Position numbers and translations under genes: made by a program. From contig JACAAZ010000011.1 of NCBI GenBank assembly GCA_013376995.1, positions 7,332 through 71,331 on the forward strand: a DNA stretch of 64,000 nt. The letters run 5' to 3'. This DNA comes from Bacteroidota bacterium. GTDB lineage: Bacteria; Bacteroidota; Bacteroidia; Bacteroidales; UBA4417. Positions within the stretch are counted from its first letter, which is position 1. Each line of letters opens with the position of its first letter. A model generated the notes under the pieces. The model was given only the letters and a program-made list of their open reading frames with translations. It was not told the origin of the DNA and did no database searches. Below, piece by piece: positions 17,239 through 27,200 of this stretch.

Positions 17239-17282
17239 AGGTTGAAAATTACGGAGCATCAAAAGTAAACTTATTTATAAAA

Positions 17283-17314
17283 AAAACCTCCGGAGAATAT
17301 TTTCCGGAGGTTTT
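17283..17314 (-). terminator. Rho-independent terminator of the cytochrome cluster
   Basis: A 12-bp stem (AAAACCTCCGGA / TCCGGAGGTTTT) with a short A/T-rich loop lies about 50 bases after the stop of the multihaem lipoprotein gene. On the minus strand it is followed by a run of T residues. It marks the end of the respiratory cluster. Confidence 0.85.
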
Positions 17315-17366
17315 CAATTTTCCCAGAATCAGCTAAAATGTGATTCAGAAAAGTCCTGTGAACTTA

Positions 17367-18746
17367 TCAGGGGAATAAAGCGATTGAGTTTGTTAAAAGG
17401 CCGAAGGAATAATCGTGGTTGTGAATACCAAGACTGAATTCCCTTAAGCACAATTGGAAGTTGATGATAGCTCCCATCTGGGCATTGGTCAGATAAAGCT
17501 TAGGATAAGTAAGGTTCTGAGCTTTCTGAGCTGGAGTCCATGAACTAGCAGGGCTAGGATTCTGGAAGAGACCGTTAGGATTGTTAGCTGGGCCTGTTGG
17601 GTTGCTTGCTGGATCGTAAACATTCAGGTAACCATCATAATTATTGGCAGTTAAGCCAGCCCAAAGATTGGTTGTAGCATCAGGGTTACGGTTGAGGATA
17701 TCCCTTCCGCTTTCCTGCAGTTTGCCAGCCAAAGTGTTGAGTAAGGTCTTGATCTCAGTGCGGGTTCCTGTCCAAAGAACATCGGAAGAACTGATTCCAC
17801 TGTGGCAACCAGTTGCATTACATCCATTGAAATTACCTGCAGCGCTGAAGGAGTGTCCACCGGCCTTGCCATTGATGGCGCCCATATGACAATCCTGGCA
17901 GGTAGCCTGGGTTGCGTGTGCTGAACTTGCATAAGAAGCTGTTCCTGCAAATTCAATACCGCCCATACCGGCAACAATAGCTCCAACAGTTCCATAATGG
18001 GTGTGAGTCCTGTAACCTGGTTTCAGTTTGTTGGTGGTAACGCCAGCGGTTGTATCATAGAATACAGCAGTTGGGTTTGCGGCAATTGCAGCATAGTCAA
18101 GAACATTACCGTCACCGGCAGAAGCGGTGAAAGGACGTGGCTGATGACATTTGAGACAAAGGTTGCTTTGTCCATCTTTCTGGGCAAGGTTGATGGTTTT
18201 TGTACCGCCCCACATGGTCATGGCAACTGGAGCTACATTGGTGAACGGCTGAAGGTCAGCTACGGTATATGTGCTATGCAGGCTGCTGTGGCAGGTTGAG
18301 CAGGTGATATCACCATAAGCTTTATCCGGCACAGTTGCATAATCATTCACATATTTACCTGTTGCAGCGTTCAGCGTAAAGGTTGAAGGAATGTTGTTTG
18401 CACAAACATATTTGAAAGCTTCTGAACAATGGCATGGAGTACAACCGGTGTTTCCAGCTTCTGAAAATGCAGTTTCGCCATAGGAGTGCTTTGACAGTTC
18501 ATACTGAACTGAAACAAGGTCTACTACGTCTTTTGCATGACAAGTGGTACAGGTAGCATTGGCATCAACACCATTTGTTCCGTTTGTTCCGTTAATTCCA
18601 TTGGTTCCATCTTTCCCGTTGGCTCCATTGGTACCGTTTGTACCGTTGGCACCAGCAGGTCCGGTTTTACCAATTGGCCCTTCCTTGGTACAGGATGTGA
18701 TCAGCAAACCTGCACCGATTGCCAGAATGAATAATAATTTTTTCAT
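17367..18746 (-). CDS. Multihaem cytochrome c lipoprotein with collagen-like stalk
   Basis: A 459-residue lipoprotein. The lipobox ends LITSC (C19). Residues 23-59 are about twelve uninterrupted Gly-X-Y triplets (GPAGANGTNGTNGANGKDG and onward). Five CXXCH haem motifs follow, at residues 66, 102, 149, 197 and 283, plus one CX4CH motif (CNATGCH, residue 309). The C-terminal 130 residues lack haem motifs. It is probably anchored in the outer membrane with the stalk raising the haem domain; periplasmic orientation cannot be excluded. It is the last gene of the cluster, 272 bases from its upstream neighbour, and may have its own promoter with an FNR-type site. Its role as terminal electron carrier is inferred. 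Confidence 0.88.
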   Translation of the reverse strand: MKKLLFILAIGAGLLITSCTKEGPIGKTGPAGANGTNGTNGANGKDGTNGINGTNGTNGVDANATCTTCHAKDVVDLVSVQYELSKHSYGETAFSEAGNTGCTPCHCSEAFKYVCANNIPSTFTLNAATGKYVNDYATVPDKAYGDITCSTCHSSLHSTYTVADLQPFTNVAPVAMTMWGGTKTINLAQKDGQSNLCLKCHQPRPFTASAGDGNVLDYAAIAANPTAVFYDTTAGVTTNKLKPGYRTHTHYGTVGAIVAGMGGIEFAGTASYASSAHATQATCQDCHMGAINGKAGGHSFSAAGNFNGCNATGCHSGISSSDVLWTGTRTEIKTLLNTLAGKLQESGRDILNRNPDATTNLWAGLTANNYDGYLNVYDPASNPTGPANNPNGLFQNPSPASSWTPAQKAQNLTYPKLYLTNAQMGAIINFQLCLREFSLGIHNHDYSFGLLTNSIALFP

Positions 18747-18930
18747 AAGTAATTGGTTTAGTTAGTTGTTAGGGTTTGTATTAAAGGTTCTTGCACTAAA
18801 GATTTTTATGCTTCTTACAGGCCTTAAATACCTGCCTGATTGAATGCAAATATGTAATTATATATGTTCGATTTCATGTATGTTGTGTTGATATTTTCAC
18901 TTGTAAGCGATGTTATATTCCCGATTCCCA

Positions 18931-18944
18931 TTGATAAAAATCAA
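18931..18944. promoter_or_regulatory. Perfect FNR-type box TTGAT-N4-ATCAA
   Basis: TTGATAAAAATCAA is an exact match to the FNR consensus TTGAT-N4-ATCAA, and the symmetry extends one base on each side. It lies about 185 bases upstream of the multihaem lipoprotein start. An FNR-like regulator with the four cluster cysteines is encoded 7.6 kb away. I did not find a clear -7 box at the right distance, so the promoter itself is unresolved. Confidence 0.6.
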
Positions 18945-19018
18945 TCATTAATTGACATATGAAGATTAATCAATACATATAAGTATATAACATATCAACG
19001 TGTGTCTTATACCTGGGT

Positions 19019-19927
19019 TCAGCTGGTTGCCTCTTCTTTTTCTACTTTGACTTTACTTGATTTCTTGATCATGATCAGCTGAATTACTGCAAACAAATAA
19101 TGTCCCCATACCCCGGCTAACATGATGATTAGTGTTATGATCATCCAGAGCGGCGCAACGGGAGTCCAAAGCTCACGACTTGGCCTGTCAGGGCTTATCA
19201 GATGTTTCGGTAATCCCCATTTGATGTCAGCTTTGGCCATAACGTTACCATAGGTGTCATTTTCATCAATGGTTGCAACTACATTCAGATTCCCAAGTGA
19301 ATCACCAATAATATCCCTGGGGAATTCAGCTGTGCCGGTCCCCGTAGAATCTACCGAAATAGAAGCAACCTTAAGCATGCTAAGCATTTTAGGCACAGAA
19401 ATGGTAACATCGGTTGCTCCGATTGGAGATTCTGTCCCATCTGAATTAAGCTGGCTTGCTGTTACTTTAACATGCCGAACAGAGTCCTCTTCATAAAAGG
19501 TGACTACCATTTTGGATGGTTTTATTGCAAATTCACCATTAGCAGAGGCAAACTTTTCATTACCGGTAAACGCTGCCTTAAATTCTATCAGTTGCTGGGC
19601 ATTCCGGCTGAACTTATTATGTGCTGGAACTTTGAGGACTGCTGAGCCCCTGAAGTCTGTTTTTGCTATTCCAACTTCTGATTCACTATCACCGGCCTTA
19701 GCAGTGAATTTTACAGGCGCATTGGCAAGAAAGGTTGGACCTTTATCGTGTTTGACGCTTATAACAGCTTTCAACTGAATACTATCATCAGAAGTGCTGG
19801 TACAAATAAAGCTCATACTCGTTTCAGCCGGGCCCTGGGCGGTTTTTTCCTTGTTATCCTGTGCCGAACTCATCCTTGGAAGGACTAGCAGTATGATCGT
19901 TGCGAGTATTATCCCTATTCTTTTCAT
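19019..19927 (-). CDS. Ig-like membrane-anchored protein of the cytochrome cluster
   Basis: A 302-residue protein that I do not recognise as a named family. It has a signal peptide (to about residue 22), two beta-sandwich segments (about 30-135 and 140-235; one reads APVKFTAKAGDSESEVGIA) and one C-terminal transmembrane helix (about 262-285) with a basic cytoplasmic tail (KKSSKVKVEKEE). It would sit on the periplasmic face of the inner membrane. It begins 33 bases after the nrfD-like gene. It could be a scaffold for the electron-transfer complex; this is inferred from position alone. Confidence 0.8.
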   Translation of the reverse strand: MKRIGIILATIILLVLPRMSSAQDNKEKTAQGPAETSMSFICTSTSDDSIQLKAVISVKHDKGPTFLANAPVKFTAKAGDSESEVGIAKTDFRGSAVLKVPAHNKFSRNAQQLIEFKAAFTGNEKFASANGEFAIKPSKMVVTFYEEDSVRHVKVTASQLNSDGTESPIGATDVTISVPKMLSMLKVASISVDSTGTGTAEFPRDIIGDSLGNLNVVATIDENDTYGNVMAKADIKWGLPKHLISPDRPSRELWTPVAPLWMIITLIIMLAGVWGHYLFAVIQLIMIKKSSKVKVEKEEATS

Positions 19928-19960
19928 GTCTTGCTTTATAAATATGGTTAACAGGATAGA

Positions 19961-21283
19961 TTAGCGAAGGTAAATATCACCCGATTCCTTAGGCTCTTCC
20001 TTGAGTTCAGCAACCTGTACGATGGGAATAAGCTTGGAGGCTATAGTAAAGAAGAGGCAGAATGATGCAACACCTCCGGCAGTTAATACCATTTCTACCC
20101 AGGTGGGAGAATAATGCAACCACGCGGCTCTTGCATCTTGTATCGGCAGGTAAGGTGATTCGAGGGTGGGTACAACGATCAGGTAACGGTTCATCCATAG
20201 TGCGATAATTACAACCACAGCAGTGATGGTAATATTGTTGATGGTCCTCAGCTTCTTGAATCCTACAACGATCAAGGGAAGCAGCACGCCTACATAGTTA
20301 GAGAAAATGAAGAAGAAATAGTAATCTTTGAAAAGTATCTTGATCAGTATTTCATCGTTTTTTTCTGAACCATACCATTTTGTAAGATATTCACTAAATG
20401 TAAAATAACCGAAAAAGGCTGCCAGTACAAGCATAATTACACCAACATTTACGAAGTGTTTTTGTGTTATATGTTTTTCGAGGTGGTAAACCTTGCGGAA
20501 TATAAACATTGCGAGTATGAGAACTCCTGTTCCGGAGTAAACAGCTGCTATGACAAAATAAGGTCCGAAAATCGTGCTGTGCCAACCGGGTTGTAATGTA
20601 ACGCTGAAGATCCAGGCTAAAACTGAATACACAATAATTGCGATGGCGATTACCATACCAGCCATAATATCAGTTGCTCTTTTCAGGCGGATCTGCTGTT
20701 CCGGAGTACCTGTGTACCCCAGGGCAAGCATCTTATAGAGTTTCTTCTGCCAGGCCGGGACTTTAAGGGCTTCATAATCTCTTAATTTACTGAGGTCACG
20801 GAGAATTGCCAGGTAAAGGAAGATAAAGCATCCGATAATATCCGTAGAAATCGCAATTACGTCCCAGGTAATGGGTGACTGAATACGTCCGAACAGGATA
20901 AGGTTAGGTAAACGGTCGAGCCTGCCAATACAGAGCATAATGTATAAAGGACCAATTAACAGCGAGATAACTGTGATAAACTCGGCCATACGAATGACAG
21001 GTTTTCTCCATTCGGCATGAAAGAGATGAAGAGTCCCTGAAATTAAGGCTCCTGCGTAGCTTATTCCCATAAAGAAAATGAAGTTTACGATATAAACGCC
21101 CCATACTACATTATCGCGCATGCCAGTAACAATATGCCCCCGTGAAACCTGCCAGTATAATGCGAATAACCCCATACAAACCATGAAGATCAGGAAACCA
21201 ATCCAGATCTTACCTTTTAGGCCGGTATGCTCCAGTTGAGGCGCAAATTCCTTTAGTAATTCATCTGTTTGAGTCTGGCTCAT
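19961..21283 (-). CDS. NrfD/PsrC-type quinol-interacting membrane subunit
   Basis: A 440-residue integral membrane protein with about ten hydrophobic segments. It belongs to the NrfD/PsrC/HybB superfamily, which exchanges electrons between quinones and a partner iron-sulfur protein. The segment FTFSEYLTKWYG resembles the conserved SE....WY region of the 10-helix members such as HybB and ActC of alternative complex III. It overlaps the iron-sulfur gene by 4 bases (ATGA), the usual order for such pairs. Direction of electron flow cannot be read from sequence. Confidence 0.9.
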   Translation of the reverse strand: MSQTQTDELLKEFAPQLEHTGLKGKIWIGFLIFMVCMGLFALYWQVSRGHIVTGMRDNVVWGVYIVNFIFFMGISYAGALISGTLHLFHAEWRKPVIRMAEFITVISLLIGPLYIMLCIGRLDRLPNLILFGRIQSPITWDVIAISTDIIGCFIFLYLAILRDLSKLRDYEALKVPAWQKKLYKMLALGYTGTPEQQIRLKRATDIMAGMVIAIAIIVYSVLAWIFSVTLQPGWHSTIFGPYFVIAAVYSGTGVLILAMFIFRKVYHLEKHITQKHFVNVGVIMLVLAAFFGYFTFSEYLTKWYGSEKNDEILIKILFKDYYFFFIFSNYVGVLLPLIVVGFKKLRTINNITITAVVVIIALWMNRYLIVVPTLESPYLPIQDARAAWLHYSPTWVEMVLTAGGVASFCLFFTIASKLIPIVQVAELKEEPKESGDIYLR

Positions 21284-22248
21284 GATTTTTTCTCCTTATC
21301 CTTAAGTTTCTTAACAAATGGGGTGTTGTCGTATCTCGCCTTGATTTCCGGATCCAGGCTTTCATAACCACGCTCAACCGGGAACTGCCGGTCGACTGGT
21401 GGCAGGTAATAGACATTAGGCCGGGTACCCAGGTTTTCCAGGTACTGATAACCGGCGCGGTCGCGGATCAATTCACTGAATTTGTAAGTATCAACTCCAT
21501 TGGTCACTACATCTTCATCAATATCCCCGAAAAGGATAGTTCCCATTGGACAGGCTGAAGCACAATATGGCAATTTGCCTTCCCTGGCCATATCCGGGCA
21601 GAAATCGCATTTTGAAACGGTTCCTTCAACACCCGGAACACCTTTTTCAGGTGAATAGCTTTGAGGGGAATCGTATACATCTTCATGTTTCCATGCAAAA
21701 ATCCGGGTGGAATATGGACAACCGGTCATGCAGAATTTACAACCAATACATCTTTCATTATCAATAAGCACTATCCCGTCACTCCTTTTAAATGTTGCAC
21801 CTACAGGGCAAACACTTACACATTGTGGATTGTCACAATGATAGCATGGTTTCGGGAACCAATAAGGTGCTGATTTTAATGAATCCTGCAGCAGGTAAAC
21901 TTTCATAAACTCCTCACCATGAGGCAGATTATGGCCTTTCTGGCAGGATTCAACACATGCCCTGGCGTTTTTACACTTTGCCAGATCAATCACCATAACG
22001 AATTTACGGCCGGGGATTCCCTGGTGTGAATCCTTTCGATCTACCGGGGGAAGTGTGAGGAAGTTCTTGTCAACCTCCATCATTTCTCCTGAAGTAGTAA
22101 GAACCTTGACTTTATCTCCGGATTCTACTGCAAGGCTTTTCCCTGTTGCAAGGATTGCTCCGGTAGCAACTGTCCCTGCGCCAGCTATCAGGCCCAGTTT
22201 CAGAAATCTGCGACGTGAATTTCCGTCTTTGTTCTTTTCGTCGTTCAT
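21280..22248 (-). CDS. Tat-exported four-cluster ferredoxin subunit
   Basis: A 322-residue protein with a twin-arginine signal (SRRRFLKLGL, residues 11-20) and four cysteine groups. Groups two to four are complete: C135/138/143/147, C167/170/173/177 and C214/217/229/233. The first group, CKNARACVESC, has C92, C98 and C102, but the position where the second cysteine is expected is alanine (A95). The first cluster could be a [3Fe-4S] or be degenerate. The protein matches the NrfC/PsrB/HybA type that partners NrfD. Tat export places it in the periplasm. It lies between the cytochrome b and NrfD genes. Confidence 0.92.
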   Translation of the reverse strand: MNDEKNKDGNSRRRFLKLGLIAGAGTVATGAILATGKSLAVESGDKVKVLTTSGEMMEVDKNFLTLPPVDRKDSHQGIPGRKFVMVIDLAKCKNARACVESCQKGHNLPHGEEFMKVYLLQDSLKSAPYWFPKPCYHCDNPQCVSVCPVGATFKRSDGIVLIDNERCIGCKFCMTGCPYSTRIFAWKHEDVYDSPQSYSPEKGVPGVEGTVSKCDFCPDMAREGKLPYCASACPMGTILFGDIDEDVVTNGVDTYKFSELIRDRAGYQYLENLGTRPNVYYLPPVDRQFPVERGYESLDPEIKARYDNTPFVKKLKDKEKKS

Positions 22249-22309
22249 TGATTTATGTTTAGTCAGAATGATGTCGGATTGTTGAGCGGATCAGTTGGTT
22301 CCAGGCAGG

Positions 22310-22927
22310 TCAATGGGATTCATGATAGCCATTGATCATGCTTTTGAAATTGCTTATGAATGTGGCACCGATTGTACAGAAATATATATGTACAAACATG
22401 AAGAAGGAAAGCAGGAATCCAATGATAACATGCAGGAAGTCGTTGATCTTCAAGCCACTTCCTCCAAGGAATTTAACGAAAACAAATTCGGGGTACAAAA
22501 GTGCCCAGCCAGTCAGAAATACAATAGGTACCATCACATACATGGCAACAACGTATGTAAATTGCTGAAGAGGGTTGAACTTCTTTTCTACTGTTACAGG
22601 GAAAGGCGCTTTCTCCCTTTTGAAAATACCAAAAGTGTAGTAAAGGAATTGCTTTTTCAACCTGTCAAACATTCCACTGAAAGTTAACTTATAATACTTA
22701 CCATTGGGAGTAAAAAAGTTGCCAAGGAAGAAAAAAAGATAATTGGCTGTGAGCAGCATCCCTGAGATATTATGGATAGAAACAGCCCTGTCGAACCGGA
22801 TAAATTCAACTTTCATCCCCGAAAACTGCATATTGACTCCGGTAATGATAAGCATGAGGATCAGGATAGCATTGATTGCATGCCAAAGACGGACCCATTT
22901 AGGATATAGATAGAGTTTCTCAGCCAT
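22310..22927 (-). CDS. Cytochrome b561/PhsC-like membrane subunit
   Basis: A 205-residue protein with four transmembrane helices and four well-placed histidines: H16 (LWHAIN), H52 (SIHNISG), H166 (FLHVIIG) and H180 (FVHIYFC). This is the pattern of di-haem cytochrome b subunits such as PhsC and FdnI, which pass electrons between quinone and periplasmic redox partners. It overlaps the heptahaem cytochrome gene by 8 bases, which points to coupled translation and a common complex. Confidence 0.87.
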   Translation of the reverse strand: MAEKLYLYPKWVRLWHAINAILILMLIITGVNMQFSGMKVEFIRFDRAVSIHNISGMLLTANYLFFFLGNFFTPNGKYYKLTFSGMFDRLKKQFLYYTFGIFKREKAPFPVTVEKKFNPLQQFTYVVAMYVMVPIVFLTGWALLYPEFVFVKFLGGSGLKINDFLHVIIGFLLSFFMFVHIYFCTIGATFISNFKSMINGYHESH

Positions 22928-23909
22928 TGTTTTTTCTTTTTATAATTCTTAGAGTAGCATGAACAGCAATCCCGGCAATTACACAGCCAAACATTACGAG
23001 GCTAAGGATTCCAAGGTAGTAATTCCGGTTAGCTCCTATTACATAGGCTTCGTTCATAATAACACCATTAAAAAAGCCGGATTTGCTGCGTCCTTCCTTT
23101 ACCTTGTATTTGTATAAGGAAGCCATAAGAATGGAATTGGTTGAATGACATTCAACACAGCGCTTTACAGCTTTAGCTTTGGGTTGTATATTATGGGATA
23201 CTAGAAGCGAATCATTGACACGGGCATGGCATTCGATACACCTGATATTCCTGAAGTGCAGGGCCTGGTTTGGAAGCCATTCATGTTTTTTGATGATATT
23301 TGGATTTACTTTATCAGTAAGGAGTTGATATTTCGTGATATCTCCGTGGCAGTTCAGGCAAATGGCATTGTCGTATGCAACAATGTCTTTAATTTTATCA
23401 TCAGTGCGTGCACTGATCTTGTATTCATGAGGATTATGGCACATCCAGCAGGTGAAATCCTCACTATGCTTGGTTGAATGCACAGATTCCTGGAACTCTG
23501 ATTCAATTTTTTCAAACTTGAATTTGGCATACTTGGGGTCATCCCCATGGCAATCAATGCAGAGGTATTTTGATTCCATCCTCAAACGGCCGGGGTGGGG
23601 AAATGAATCGTAATCCTCCGAATGGCAATCGGTACATTTGAATTGTTTATGATTGGATTCATAGAACATATCCCGGCTGATAATTATCTCCGAGTACATC
23701 CTTTTGAAGACTTCTTTGTCGGATTCAGTATTTTTATAAGAGTACTTTGATTGCCCGTGACATTTAAAGCATGTCTCGTTGCTTTCCGCATTCTTATATT
23801 GTTTCTTCGTTTTATCATCCAGCCGGAAGGCTGTAATGGCACAGAACACCAGGCATAATAGCAGCCCTTTGAAAAGGATGTTCGACAAGGAAAGAGAGAT
23901 GTTACGCAT
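22920..23909 (-). CDS. Heptahaem cytochrome c with C-terminal membrane anchor
   Basis: A 329-residue cytochrome c with seven CXXCH motifs at residues 47, 92, 117, 154, 184, 224 and 251, an N-terminal signal segment and a C-terminal transmembrane helix (about residues 298-318) with a basic tail. The pattern suggests a periplasmic electron carrier attached to the inner membrane, related to tetrahaem/multihaem NapC/NrfB-like proteins. No catalytic CXXCK motif is present. It lies directly before the cytochrome b gene with an 8-base overlap. No named family is assigned. Confidence 0.88.
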   Translation of the reverse strand: MRNISLSLSNILFKGLLLCLVFCAITAFRLDDKTKKQYKNAESNETCFKCHGQSKYSYKNTESDKEVFKRMYSEIIISRDMFYESNHKQFKCTDCHSEDYDSFPHPGRLRMESKYLCIDCHGDDPKYAKFKFEKIESEFQESVHSTKHSEDFTCWMCHNPHEYKISARTDDKIKDIVAYDNAICLNCHGDITKYQLLTDKVNPNIIKKHEWLPNQALHFRNIRCIECHARVNDSLLVSHNIQPKAKAVKRCVECHSTNSILMASLYKYKVKEGRSKSGFFNGVIMNEAYVIGANRNYYLGILSLVMFGCVIAGIAVHATLRIIKRKNNG

Positions 23910-23953
23910 AATTCTTATTTAGACTAAAATTCAATTAGCACCTTGATAAAATA

Positions 23954-23991
23954 GAATTGGGTGTTTGCCTTGTTGGCGAAACACCCAATTC
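23954..23991 (-). terminator. Hairpin between the monohaem and heptahaem cytochrome genes
   Basis: A 13-bp inverted repeat (GAATTGGGTGTTT / AAACACCCAATTC) lies in the 98-base gap between the two cytochrome genes. On the minus strand it is followed by CTATTTTATC, only partly T-rich. It may be a terminator, attenuator or mRNA-stabilising hairpin that sets the ratio of the upstream and downstream parts of the cluster. Confidence 0.6.
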
Positions 23992-24007
23992 ATCAGGTTG
24001 GATCATG

Positions 24008-24412
24008 CTATTTTTTAAGCGTCCGCATGAAGGCTACCAATGCCCAACGGTCTGCATCATCCGCAATTTTCTTTTCGTAGGATGGCATCTCATCACGTCC
24101 TTTAGTGGTCTTGTAATAAAGTTCACCATCGGTGAAAGCCTGGAATTCCTTGCTGCTGAAATCTCCGCAAGTGGTTTTCAGACCTGAAGCCTTTGGACCA
24201 TCACCTAAACCTTTTGCACCATGGCATGATTTGCAATGTTTGGCAAATAATTCCTTACCGGCAGCAACATCACCCTTGCCCTTCATGGTCTTGAAGTTGG
24301 CTGGGGTTTCCCATGGACCGGGTTTCTTCTGTGCCATTACATTGTTGGCAAATACAAAAAGAACGGTGGCGAGCATAATTGCTGCAAGCCTGATCATCTG
24401 TTTAGTTTTCAT
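24008..24412 (-). CDS. Exported monohaem cytochrome c
   Basis: A 134-residue class I cytochrome c. It has a signal peptide (to about residue 27, NNVMAQ), one CKSCH haem site (residues 60-64) and a likely methionine axial ligand in GRDEMPSYEKK (about residue 110). This family serves as a soluble periplasmic electron shuttle. It lies between the barrel protein and the heptahaem cytochrome, so it could connect the two. Confidence 0.92.
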   Translation of the reverse strand: MKTKQMIRLAAIMLATVLFVFANNVMAQKKPGPWETPANFKTMKGKGDVAAGKELFAKHCKSCHGAKGLGDGPKASGLKTTCGDFSSKEFQAFTDGELYYKTTKGRDEMPSYEKKIADDADRWALVAFMRTLKK

Positions 24413-24468
24413 ATTGGATTGGTTTTAAAATTGAATTGGTAATTTAACAATAATTATTCCACTTTGGT

Positions 24469-25428
24469 TTAAAAGTTCCAGAGGCGGGTAATATTAAGAC
24501 CGAGAAGGAATTGCTTGTTGAAGAAATCATTCTGGTTGTTCATCATAGTTTCCTGTGGTAATATACTCTGCGATGTGCCAAAGAAGATATGGAAAGCATG
24601 CGTGCTTGTCGATATCTCTGCACCAATGGTGAAGTTCGGTTTAGGAGGATTTATAAACTCCTTGTACTCAGCAATGCCTTTAATTTTCAATGGCCAGTCA
24701 ACACCAAACATGAAGGATGTCTGTGGGCTGATTTTATACCTTACTGCATAAGAGATCCCGATTTTATCATGTTCCCAGGCACTGACATCGGTTGTGCTGA
24801 AAGGGAGCCAGTACGCATCTGCACTCTTGATATTGACAGTGTCAACCTTGTACCAGTTATAATGGGTAAAACTTGGGGCAAGCTGCATGGAAAGGTGATT
24901 GTTAAACCTGCGGGAAATGATCAACTCAGTAAAATACGAGAACCTGTTACTGAATTTGAAATTTGTTCCAACTGCTAGAGTATCATCTTTAGGTAATGCA
25001 CAGTCAATCTGCATATCAGTATATAGGGTTAATGTAACCGGGATGCTGTTTGAACGTGTTTGCTCAACAATGTTGTATTTTAACTGGAAATCCTGGGCCT
25101 TTTTAATTTTAGTGGCACCCCAGCCAACCATCAAATTCTTGAGTATGGTATAATTCAAGCCAATCCTGATATTTGAGCTGCCCCAAAGACCATATAAATC
25201 TTTCTTGAGGCCGTATTCTACGGAACCAAACCGATGCTGGATTACAAATTCCAGGGCGTTTTTTTGCTGCACATTGGATGTTTGCTGGTCGAATAGCAAG
25301 CCGCTTTCAAAAGCAGGTTTTGCCGGCCTGTTATCCGGGCCTGTTGGTTCTTCAGTGGCATCCTGTGCAAAGGCGCTTAACCTGACAAGCATGGCTGCTG
25401 TAATAAGAATGCTGTAAACTAATTTCAT
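24469..25428 (-). CDS. DUF5777-like predicted outer-membrane beta-barrel
   Basis: A 319-residue protein with a signal peptide (SAFAQD). The remaining sequence is made of alternating beta-strand stretches, and it ends LLGLNITRLWNF with a C-terminal phenylalanine. It matches the DUF5777 pattern of Bacteroidota beta-barrel proteins often found next to cytochromes (SGLLFDQQTSNVQQKNALEF region). It could be the outer-membrane pore through which electrons pass, but no direct evidence is visible. It starts 52 bases after the Ig-domain lipoprotein. Confidence 0.82.
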   Translation of the reverse strand: MKLVYSILITAAMLVRLSAFAQDATEEPTGPDNRPAKPAFESGLLFDQQTSNVQQKNALEFVIQHRFGSVEYGLKKDLYGLWGSSNIRIGLNYTILKNLMVGWGATKIKKAQDFQLKYNIVEQTRSNSIPVTLTLYTDMQIDCALPKDDTLAVGTNFKFSNRFSYFTELIISRRFNNHLSMQLAPSFTHYNWYKVDTVNIKSADAYWLPFSTTDVSAWEHDKIGISYAVRYKISPQTSFMFGVDWPLKIKGIAEYKEFINPPKPNFTIGAEISTSTHAFHIFFGTSQSILPQETMMNNQNDFFNKQFLLGLNITRLWNF

Positions 25429-25480
25429 GGGTATGATATTTCGTTTCGTTTGATACTAAGTTATTTACTGCCTTGCAGGA

Positions 25481-26185
25481 CTAATTGTTTTTCGCTCCGG
25501 CAAGTATCCACCGTTTGATAAGATTGAGATCAGCGGTTGATATATATTTCTTCATGCTGCCTCCTGAATTGCATTTGTTATAGAGAAGACTGCTTTGAGG
25601 TTCGTTGGCTACAACATAATTTCCATTGGTCAATGAAGAAAATGCCATGGAGGCCCTTAAGTCAGGTGGCTGCGAACCTTTGTGACAGGCAACGCAACTT
25701 TTAGTAAATACAGGAACAACATCATCCTTGAAACTTATAGTATCCGTAACAACTATAGTGGTGTCAGTTCCGGTAGTTGTATCACTTCCGGTTCTGAAAG
25801 ACAGGATCAATCCTTTTGTAATTGGAGTTCCTGATTTGTTGACAATCCCATTAGTAATAGTGAAAGTATAAAGTGTGTTGGCAGTGAGAGGGGATGCAGG
25901 AGTAAAGGAAGCAGTTGTGCCGGATAATGCAATGGTTCCGGTTACGGGAGTTGAGTTCTGACTTAGAGTAAATGTATTGGAATTCAAGGAATTTTCCTCC
26001 ATTACCATGTCGAAGGTAGCAGTGATCTTTTTATTCAAGGATACCCCTGTATCATTGTTGACAGGATCAGTGGATACCAGGTTGGGCACTGGGGGAGGAG
26101 TTACTAGGTAATCATACTCGCAGGATGCAAGTAATAAGAGACCGGCGGAAAAAAACACGATCAATTTTAATGTCAGGTGTTTCAT
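25481..26185 (-). CDS. Lipoprotein with a Big_5 Ig-like domain and one haem motif
   Basis: A 234-residue lipoprotein (lipobox LLASC, C22). A Big_5-type Ig-like domain covers about residues 35-132 (PVNNDTGVSLNKKITATFD). A threonine-rich linker follows, then a cytochrome-like domain with SCVACHKGSQPPDLR and the pattern L.LIKRWILAGA near the end. The second half resembles Planctomycete-type cytochrome c modules. It is the first gene of the cluster. It may sit on the cell surface or the inner face of the outer membrane. Confidence 0.83.
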   Translation of the reverse strand: MKHLTLKLIVFFSAGLLLLASCEYDYLVTPPPVPNLVSTDPVNNDTGVSLNKKITATFDMVMEENSLNSNTFTLSQNSTPVTGTIALSGTTASFTPASPLTANTLYTFTITNGIVNKSGTPITKGLILSFRTGSDTTTGTDTTIVVTDTISFKDDVVPVFTKSCVACHKGSQPPDLRASMAFSSLTNGNYVVANEPQSSLLYNKCNSGGSMKKYISTADLNLIKRWILAGAKNN

Positions 26186-26501: not shown

Positions 26502-27200
26502 ATGAGTTACAAATCTGGAGTGCAAACGGGATGTCATTATTGTGGAACAAGGGCTGATATTTTTGATTGCCTTTGTGAAGCTGAAATGGAGAGTATCGAT
26601 ACCCAGCGCATCGAAGTGCATTTCAAAGCCGGTGAATTGATCTTTAAACAAGGGACTCCTCATCTTCATTTCTTATGCCTTACCTCGGGTATGGTGAAGT
26701 TGTACATTGAAGGATTTGATGATAAAAACCTGATAATTGGAATTGTAAAACCAGTTGAATATATTCTGGGTCCAGGCATTTACGTTGATAATAAACATCA
26801 TTATTCAGCTATGGCCATTGAAGATTCAACCGCATGCCTGATAGAGGCCGGGATATTTAAATCCCTCATCCGCACCAATCCTGATTTTGCAGAAGCATTC
26901 ATTAAGAAAGTCAGCATGCTTTCTATACTTAACTTTGAGCAGGTCATCAGCCTTACCCAAAAGCAAATGCCAGGCCGAATTGCTGATGTGTTGATATACC
27001 TGAGGCAGAAAATCTATTCCATCAATCCTTTCCAAACTACGCTAAGCAGGCAGGATCTTGCTGATATGTCAGGAATGTCAAAAGAAAGCGCCATCAGGAT
27101 CCTGAAAGATTTTAAGGATGAAGGGATTATAAAAGTAGAGGGAAATCACTTTGAGATTCTTAATGAGGAACAGTTGCAAAATATTAGTCAAACCGGTTAA
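26502..27200 (+). CDS. FNR-like transcription regulator with four cluster cysteines
   Basis: A 232-residue Crp/Fnr family protein. The N-terminus carries C11, C14, C23 and C25 (in CHYCGTRADIFDCLC), and C112 lies in STACLIEAG, aligned with C122 of E. coli FNR (SMVCEIP). This is the arrangement expected for an oxygen-sensitive [4Fe-4S] regulator. The C-terminal helix-turn-helix is LSRQDLADMSGMSKESAIRILK; E195 and R199 match the base-contacting Glu and Arg of FNR, but the Ser of FNR is replaced by Ile. It is divergent from the cytochrome cluster, which is its likely target. Confidence 0.88.
   Translation: MSYKSGVQTGCHYCGTRADIFDCLCEAEMESIDTQRIEVHFKAGELIFKQGTPHLHFLCLTSGMVKLYIEGFDDKNLIIGIVKPVEYILGPGIYVDNKHHYSAMAIEDSTACLIEAGIFKSLIRTNPDFAEAFIKKVSMLSILNFEQVISLTQKQMPGRIADVLIYLRQKIYSINPFQTTLSRQDLADMSGMSKESAIRILKDFKDEGIIKVEGNHFEILNEEQLQNISQTG

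Follow-up and report, generated by a model that had tools for sequence, protein, structure and literature searches.

To what end does an uncultured member of the Bacteroidales encode quinol-linked membrane proteins, cytochromes, an outer-membrane barrel and haem lipoproteins side by side? The genes in question lie in a stretch of 64,000 nucleotides from contig JACAAZ010000011.1 of the Bacteroidota bacterium assembly GCA_013376995.1 (hereafter the window), whose map of open reading frames (ORFs) contains nine ORFs on the minus strand, running from 26185 to 17367, which we number g1 to g9 in that direction. An earlier note had described them as a nine-gene respiratory cluster carrying electrons from quinol to a surface acceptor, and its account of the gene content was borne out: the genes lie in the same place and on the same strand, and Pfam and NCBIfam assign them to the families it named. 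We consider it probable that these genes encode a module that oxidises menaquinol for extracellular respiration. The pairs g5/g4 and g7/g6 would oxidise menaquinol and pass the electrons on to g3, a periplasmic carrier, and to other multihaem cytochromes; the outer membrane would most likely be crossed via one of the separate porin/multihaem candidates of the genome; and the electrons would end on surface cytochromes, g9 among them, with an acceptor outside the cell, which may be a mineral of Fe(III) or Mn(IV), humics or another cell acting as partner. The g1/g2 pair would have some outer-membrane role in the same route, and a regulator of the FNR kind would probably turn the set on when oxygen is absent.

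The earlier proposal of a quinol-linked inner-membrane part is supported. The g4 protein (22920–23909) is a heptahaem cytochrome c of the cytochrome c3/c7 type with seven CxxCH motifs and a C-terminal membrane helix, and its gene overlaps by 8 bp that of g5 (22310–22927), a cytochrome b (PF01292). The seven haem histidines of g4 and eight further histidines are invariant in 17/17 rows of its alignment, and four histidines of g5 are invariant in 15/15 rows, which is enough for two b haems. Single-chain forms of the two occur in three relatives (L140, L056 and L186, the last being the one that was family-scanned), which argues that g4 and g5 work together. A heptahaem cytochrome c encoded beside a cytochrome b is the layout of CbcBA, and g4 and g5 are CbcA-like and CbcB-like in this respect, the likeness resting on layout and not on sequence comparison. 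The corresponding proteins of Geobacter metallireducens are a seven-haem CbcA, a b-type CbcB, a monohaem CbcD, an 11-haem CbcC and the membrane protein CbcE (PMC10470525). With this CbcABCDE (Cbc5) set the cluster shares the seven-haem protein beside an inner-membrane b-type cytochrome and a monohaem cytochrome c, here g3 (24008–24412; PF00034, E 7.7e-15), a small protein that is likely a periplasmic carrier; it differs in having no 11-haem CbcC and in the addition of a barrel, haem lipoproteins, an iron–sulfur (FeS)–NrfD pair and g8. In G. sulfurreducens, CbcBA is reported to serve electron transfer near -0.2 V (PMC12307469), and deletion of cbcBA to lower Fe(III) reduction (PMC11434368).

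The earlier note had proposed a search of Bacteroidota for co-occurrence of these families. We took as relatives the best 80 of 455 loci from a scan of named genomes, of which 79 carry Bacteroidota names and the remaining one an Alphaproteobacteria label; many of the isolate names suggest lakes. The g5 gene adjoins or is fused with g4 in all 80. In 65 loci the sequence extends 3.5 kb or more upstream; in 64 of these a g2-like ORF shares the strand of g4 and lies no more than 6.5 kb from it, and in 60 g1-like and g2-like ORFs both do so, recurring across families of the order; a g3-like ORF is found within the same distance and on the same strand in 49/65, while a g9-like ORF and a homologue of the regulator occur somewhere in the locus in 56/65 and 57/65, respectively. 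Among the 64 loci with at least 4.5 kb downstream, 39 contain g6 and g7, 23 an ImcH homologue and seven a protein with at least 14 haems; nine have neither g7 nor ImcH. The gene set thus recurs, with the FeS–NrfD pair optional, and its recurrence in these loci argues that the arrangement is more than chance. The counts divide it into a more constant part, consisting of g4–g5, the barrel and the lipoproteins, and exchangeable modules, namely the FeS–NrfD pair, ImcH and the 19-haem proteins described below. No molybdoenzyme or nitrite reductase was recognized in the clusters of the relatives, whose ORFs were scanned in part; the 80 cluster spans hold 36 unidentified ORFs on either strand, the family scan covering some of them or close counterparts of some, and a rare reductase may be among the rest. 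Of 99 related genomes searched with g4, 29 contained a match, and the ORF maps around these matches show largely the same gene set. In a sampled search of the phylum, g4 matched 62/395 genomes, reaching at least 150 bits in nine; the matches below 150 bits look like cross-matches of multihaem proteins. A plasmid collection yielded seven Rhizobium records, all weak.

A link to extracellular respiration is also seen in homologues of ImcH, a second quinol oxidase of the Geobacter type. The published pattern for this protein is a length of about 495–519 residues, three N-terminal transmembrane stretches, one CX3CH and six CX2CH motifs (PMC6295460). All 28 distinct homologues of 470–540 residues have six CX2CH motifs and one CX3CH motif, and all six that were inspected, including the copy of the window genome, have three transmembrane stretches. 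Homologues with the motif pattern of Geobacter ImcH adjoin the cluster in relatives, whereas that of the window genome lies outside the cluster, on contig C14. When seven of the 30 ImcH-matching genomes among the 99 were left out as weak (<30 bits), g4 was present in 21/23 ImcH genomes (Fisher p 5e-13); outside the genus, with one genome per family, it was present in 8/10 ImcH genomes and in 7/73 others (p 6e-6). According to a 2018 survey, ImcH homologues were confined to Fe(III) reducers, and Bacteroidetes were counted with five CbcL-type homologues and one of the ImcH type (PMC6295460).

Relatives also encode other multihaem proteins. A protein of about 930 residues with 19 CxxCH motifs is encoded 3' of g5 in seven loci (L106, L111, L114, L132, L135, L147 and L152), followed directly by a tetrahaem protein in five of them, and in L058 a protein similar to it has a cytochrome b domain. 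Two further loci (L189:10338-12545 and L191:10348-12561, the former family-scanned) encode a single chain of 735–737 residues that unites a cytochrome b part with an ImcH-like one and adjoins a 13-haem CbcA-like protein.

The second quinol-linked pair consists of g6 (21280–22248), a Tat-exported 4Fe-4S dicluster-type protein of the DsrO/CbcT/SirC kind, and g7 (19961–21283), an NrfD-family membrane subunit with 10 hydrophobic stretches (PF03916, E 5e-31). Their genes overlap by 4 bp, which, together with the overlap of g4 and g5, agrees with the 4- and 8-base overlaps given in the earlier note. The same note had called g6 a four-cluster protein; its 4Fe-4S nature stands, with the correction that we count 15 cysteines and not 16, so that one of four clusters would lack its fourth cysteine. 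Among 48 homologues, 25 have 15 cysteines, 22 have 16 and one has 17. The arrangement of a 4Fe-4S protein with a membrane partner as quinol dehydrogenase is that of CbcSTU (Cbc4) of Geobacter, SirCD of Shewanella and DsrOP; SirCD is reported to be able to replace CymA for ferric citrate, and CbcT to be homologous to DsrO (PMC11434368). In contrast to CbcSTU, the companions here are g8 and g4–g5, not the tetrahaem CbcS. By sequence, g6/g7 is a second, optional FeS–NrfD pair. A DsrMKJOP complex was rejected: g6 and g7 have DsrO (170.8 bits, cut-off 200) and DsrP (80.3 bits, cut-off 350) as their best NCBIfam matches, both below the cut-offs, and no PF02665 (NarI/DsrM-type) match was found in the window genome, whose sequence is 96.66% complete. 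Alternative complex III was likewise rejected, as the cluster has no ActB-type fusion of molybdopterin-like and FeS parts, and a locus resembling that complex lies on another contig (L063). The g8 gene (19019–19927) encodes an exported protein without a match in Pfam, NCBIfam or PHROGs; its alignment has 23 invariant columns in 26 rows and a C-terminal membrane helix region that is nearly invariant. Among the relatives g8 is about as frequent as g6–g7 (37 against 39 of 64 loci).

How the electrons would pass the outer membrane is a separate matter. The g2 protein (24469–25428) belongs to DUF5777 (PF19089, E 4e-66), and its AlphaFold2 model is a 12-stranded beta-barrel (predicted local distance difference test score, pLDDT, 86.1; predicted template modelling score 0.85), with NanC, FapF and OmpG among the best Foldseek matches. 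It has no match in PHROGs, and a literature search on DUF5777 returned no papers. Beside it is g1 (25481–26185), a lipoprotein with a Big_5 Ig-like domain and a single C-terminal CxxCH haem motif. An outer-membrane barrel beside cytochromes is also what MtrAB and porin–cytochrome (Pcc) conduits have, but the cluster has no pair of a multihaem cytochrome and a large barrel. We rejected such a conduit by way of g2, given that the model has 12 strands and that g1 and g3 have one haem each; a barrel of the predicted size would be too narrow to enclose a multihaem cytochrome. The earlier note had the set pass electrons across both membranes. The link to extracellular respiration in that statement stands, through the Cbc-like layout and ImcH, and a crossing of the outer membrane by this set alone is unproven.

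Two other loci of the window genome are better candidates for this step. On contig C39 (L203:5417-16935), cytochromes with 8, 5, 4 and 11 haems accompany a 654-residue protein and NHL-repeat proteins in what resembles a porin–cytochrome locus; this contig also has another full-length DUF5777 protein. On contig C41 (L204:6741-13148), neighbouring cytochromes with 23 and 37 CxxCH motifs are followed by a 540-residue protein. The 540-residue protein was found in 16/99 genomes, of which 13 also have g4 (4/6 outside the genus, p 0.009), and the 654-residue protein in 7/99, five of them with g4; a comparison of the latter with solved structures returned one match, at chance level.

It is also conceivable, if unlikely, that g1 and g2 form a split conduit, in which the monohaem lipoprotein would plug or cap the small DUF5777 barrel and send electrons through it to the hexahaem stalk of g9; if true, this would make the cluster an entire wire from quinol to the cell surface, with a new type of outer-membrane element. 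The pairing of barrel and monohaem protein recurs, as L035, L038 and L041 have a second DUF5777 barrel and g1-like monohaem protein 4–6 kb away on the other strand. In a distant family of the phylum, a protein of about 400–430 residues that carries a haem motif close to its N-terminus is encoded near Cbc-like genes in three of five loci (L188, L189 and L191; none was found near those of L187 and L190). It has no Pfam match in L188 and L189 and no informative NCBIfam match, and this putative barrel protein could be g1 and g2 in one chain. The putative plan is that of Cyc2 of iron oxidisers.

Returning to a module that feeds surface cytochromes, we consider g9 (17367–18746), which the earlier note had described as a haem lipoprotein in a cluster without a terminal reductase. 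That g1 and g9 are both haem lipoproteins holds, the N-termini of both translations being lipoprotein-type starts, and a crude lipobox pattern is found in 59/67 g1-like and 53/61 g9-like complete ORFs; g9 can now be specified as a hexahaem protein (five CxxCH and one CX4CH motif), and it is set apart from g8 by 272 bp and may be a separate unit. It matches collagen (28 bits, cut-off 27.2), indicating a collagen-like stalk, and PF02335 (36 bits, cut-off 24.1). Profile comparison with solved structures ranks OcwA first (E 3e-14) and NrfA next (E 4e-13), with eight-haem nitrite reductases also matched; the match to OcwA falls mostly in the last two haem motifs and the helices at the C-terminus, and it is this similarity that places g9 in the OcwA/NrfA superfamily. 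A fold search also has OcwA first, though weakly (E 0.19; model mean pLDDT 76). No CxxCK haem motif is found in any of 47 rows of the g9 alignment, and six further histidines, each a candidate second ligand of a haem, are invariant in 47/47, which suggests six bis-histidine haems and no open one. OcwA of Thermincola potens has nine haems, and g9 differs from it in its six haems, lipoprotein start, collagen-like stalk and want of a candidate open haem. NrfABCD nitrite respiration was rejected, as g9 is the sole PF02335 match in the window genome and shows no CxxCK.

OcwA is reported to be a cell-surface terminal reductase that acts on both soluble and insoluble acceptors (PMC6703420). The kinship of g9 with it makes the phrase 'without a terminal reductase' doubtful, while the narrower claim, that the cluster encodes no molybdoenzyme or true nitrite reductase, stands. 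Could g9 itself be the terminal reductase of a soluble nitrogen or sulfur oxyanion, and the cluster an ordinary chain that ends there? The score above the PF02335 cut-off, the company of nitrite reductases among the profile matches, the soluble acceptors of OcwA and two invariant residues adjoining a haem motif, Gln202 and Arg204, would all fit such an enzyme. We nevertheless think it unlikely, since the extra histidines and missing CxxCK suggest that no haem is open, the best fold match is weak, and a g9-like ORF was seen in 56/65 loci and thus not in every one. We infer instead a role for g9 in electron transfer or facing a mineral.

The same module might run inwards, taking electrons from a mineral, Fe(II) or a partner cell to reduce the quinone pool. 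Homologues of CbcL, MtrH and MtoC are reported from organisms that reduce Fe(III) as well as from those that oxidise Fe(II) (PMC6295460), reverse operation of CbcBA has been proposed for Seep-SRB2 (PMC10553843), and the complex III-like locus L063 is followed by a 538-residue ORF with 12 hydrophobic stretches that is oxidase-subunit-like by position. Set against this are the restriction of ImcH homologues to Fe(III) reducers in the survey cited above and the divergent regulator (26502–27200, plus strand; cysteines at positions 11, 14, 23, 25, 59 and 112), which is of the CRP/FNR kind; in NCBIfam its best matches are to models of Fnr and CRP, none of them reaching the cut-off. Inward flow seems to us quite improbable.

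We stress that several points weigh against a menaquinol-oxidising module of extracellular respiration. The likeness of g4/g5 to Geobacter CbcA/CbcB is, as said, one of layout, and genetics in G. metallireducens found CbcABCDE dispensable for direct interspecies electron transfer or growth on Fe(III) oxide (PMC10470525). Among the genomes with g4, 7/29 matched neither ImcH nor the 540- or 654-residue proteins; outside the genus, neither of two genomes with the 654-residue protein has g4; and these two proteins have no Pfam match, so that their putative barrel status rests on length, signal and terminal phenylalanine. In a set of 60 genomes, DUF5777 is present in 23/23 with g4 and in 10/37 without it, and the barrel is therefore not specific to this route. 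Elsewhere in the genome, the complex III-like L063 and a PhsA-like molybdoenzyme (L064) indicate that the cluster is not the sole respiratory option. Lastly, no result here fixes the direction of electron flow. That the genes are chance neighbours, with g3–g8 forming a quinol oxidase that serves a periplasmic acceptor and g1, g2 and g9 acting in uptake or stress at the outer membrane, is very unlikely: DUF5777 in genomes without g4, the second barrel–monohaem pair of L035, L038 and L041 and the 272-bp gap before g9 would suit it, but g1-like and g2-like ORFs keep to the strand and vicinity of g4 in 60/65 loci and also across families of the order.

Extracellular respiration through a menaquinol-oxidising module of this composition would be of interest on several counts. 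Bacteroidales are often regarded as polymer fermenters, and in uncultured members of the order the cluster is a conserved set of genes that probably serves extracellular respiration. Quinol oxidases of at least two kinds are combined in it with a surface-type hexahaem protein, the nearest solved relative of which is a terminal reductase from a Gram-positive bacterium. For studies of electron flow involving iron, manganese and partner species, it offers a testable set, g9 and g1–g5 with exchangeable FeS–NrfD, ImcH or 19-haem modules. Individually the parts belong to known kinds, resembling those with which metal-respiring bacteria such as Geobacter draw electrons from the inner membrane, and their combination is new. 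The earlier statement that no named system has these parts holds for the whole set, of which we found no description in the open-licence literature, but not for its sub-complexes, which have analogues in CbcAB, CbcTU/SirCD and, in relatives, ImcH. The abstract of a review that lists known NrfD complexes makes no mention of this one (PMC8076601). For the Prolixibacteraceae metagenome-assembled genome HCC_PROLIX_006 (2023), a reconstruction legend includes NrfD, 4Fe-4S and a multihaem cytochrome, and the accessible text speaks of several possible pathways of extracellular electron transfer, giving there no gene order, barrel or lipoproteins (PMC10504345). A joint query of the open-licence literature for Prolixibacteraceae, extracellular electron transfer and multiheme cytochrome gave no match.

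At the 3' end, an intrinsic terminator (17279–17315, minus strand) closes the cluster after g9, as the earlier note had claimed; it is a strong hairpin of 13 pairs (17282–17315) with a U-run (-20 kcal/mol, z -5.5), absent from the output of a simple consensus terminator scan. Promoter-like sites were no commoner in a promoter scan than in shuffles (26 against 24.8).

Two observations concern genes outside the cluster. On contig C13 of the window genome (L064:1-2561), a protein of about 850 residues with 10 CxxCH motifs and weak, below-cut-off matches of the cytochrome b type is encoded near the PhsA-like molybdoenzyme, which has FeS and NrfD-family neighbours. The 64-kb window gave no match for riboflavin kinase, which in 28/80 loci is encoded as a stand-alone gene after the cluster and on its strand (for example L090:14751-15203, for which PF01687 was found; the other 27 were recognized by BLAST). 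It lies within 300 bp of a recognized cluster gene in 24 of the 28, the clusters ending in g8, ImcH or g5, and this proximity may point to flavins in the electron route or reflect mere shared descent.

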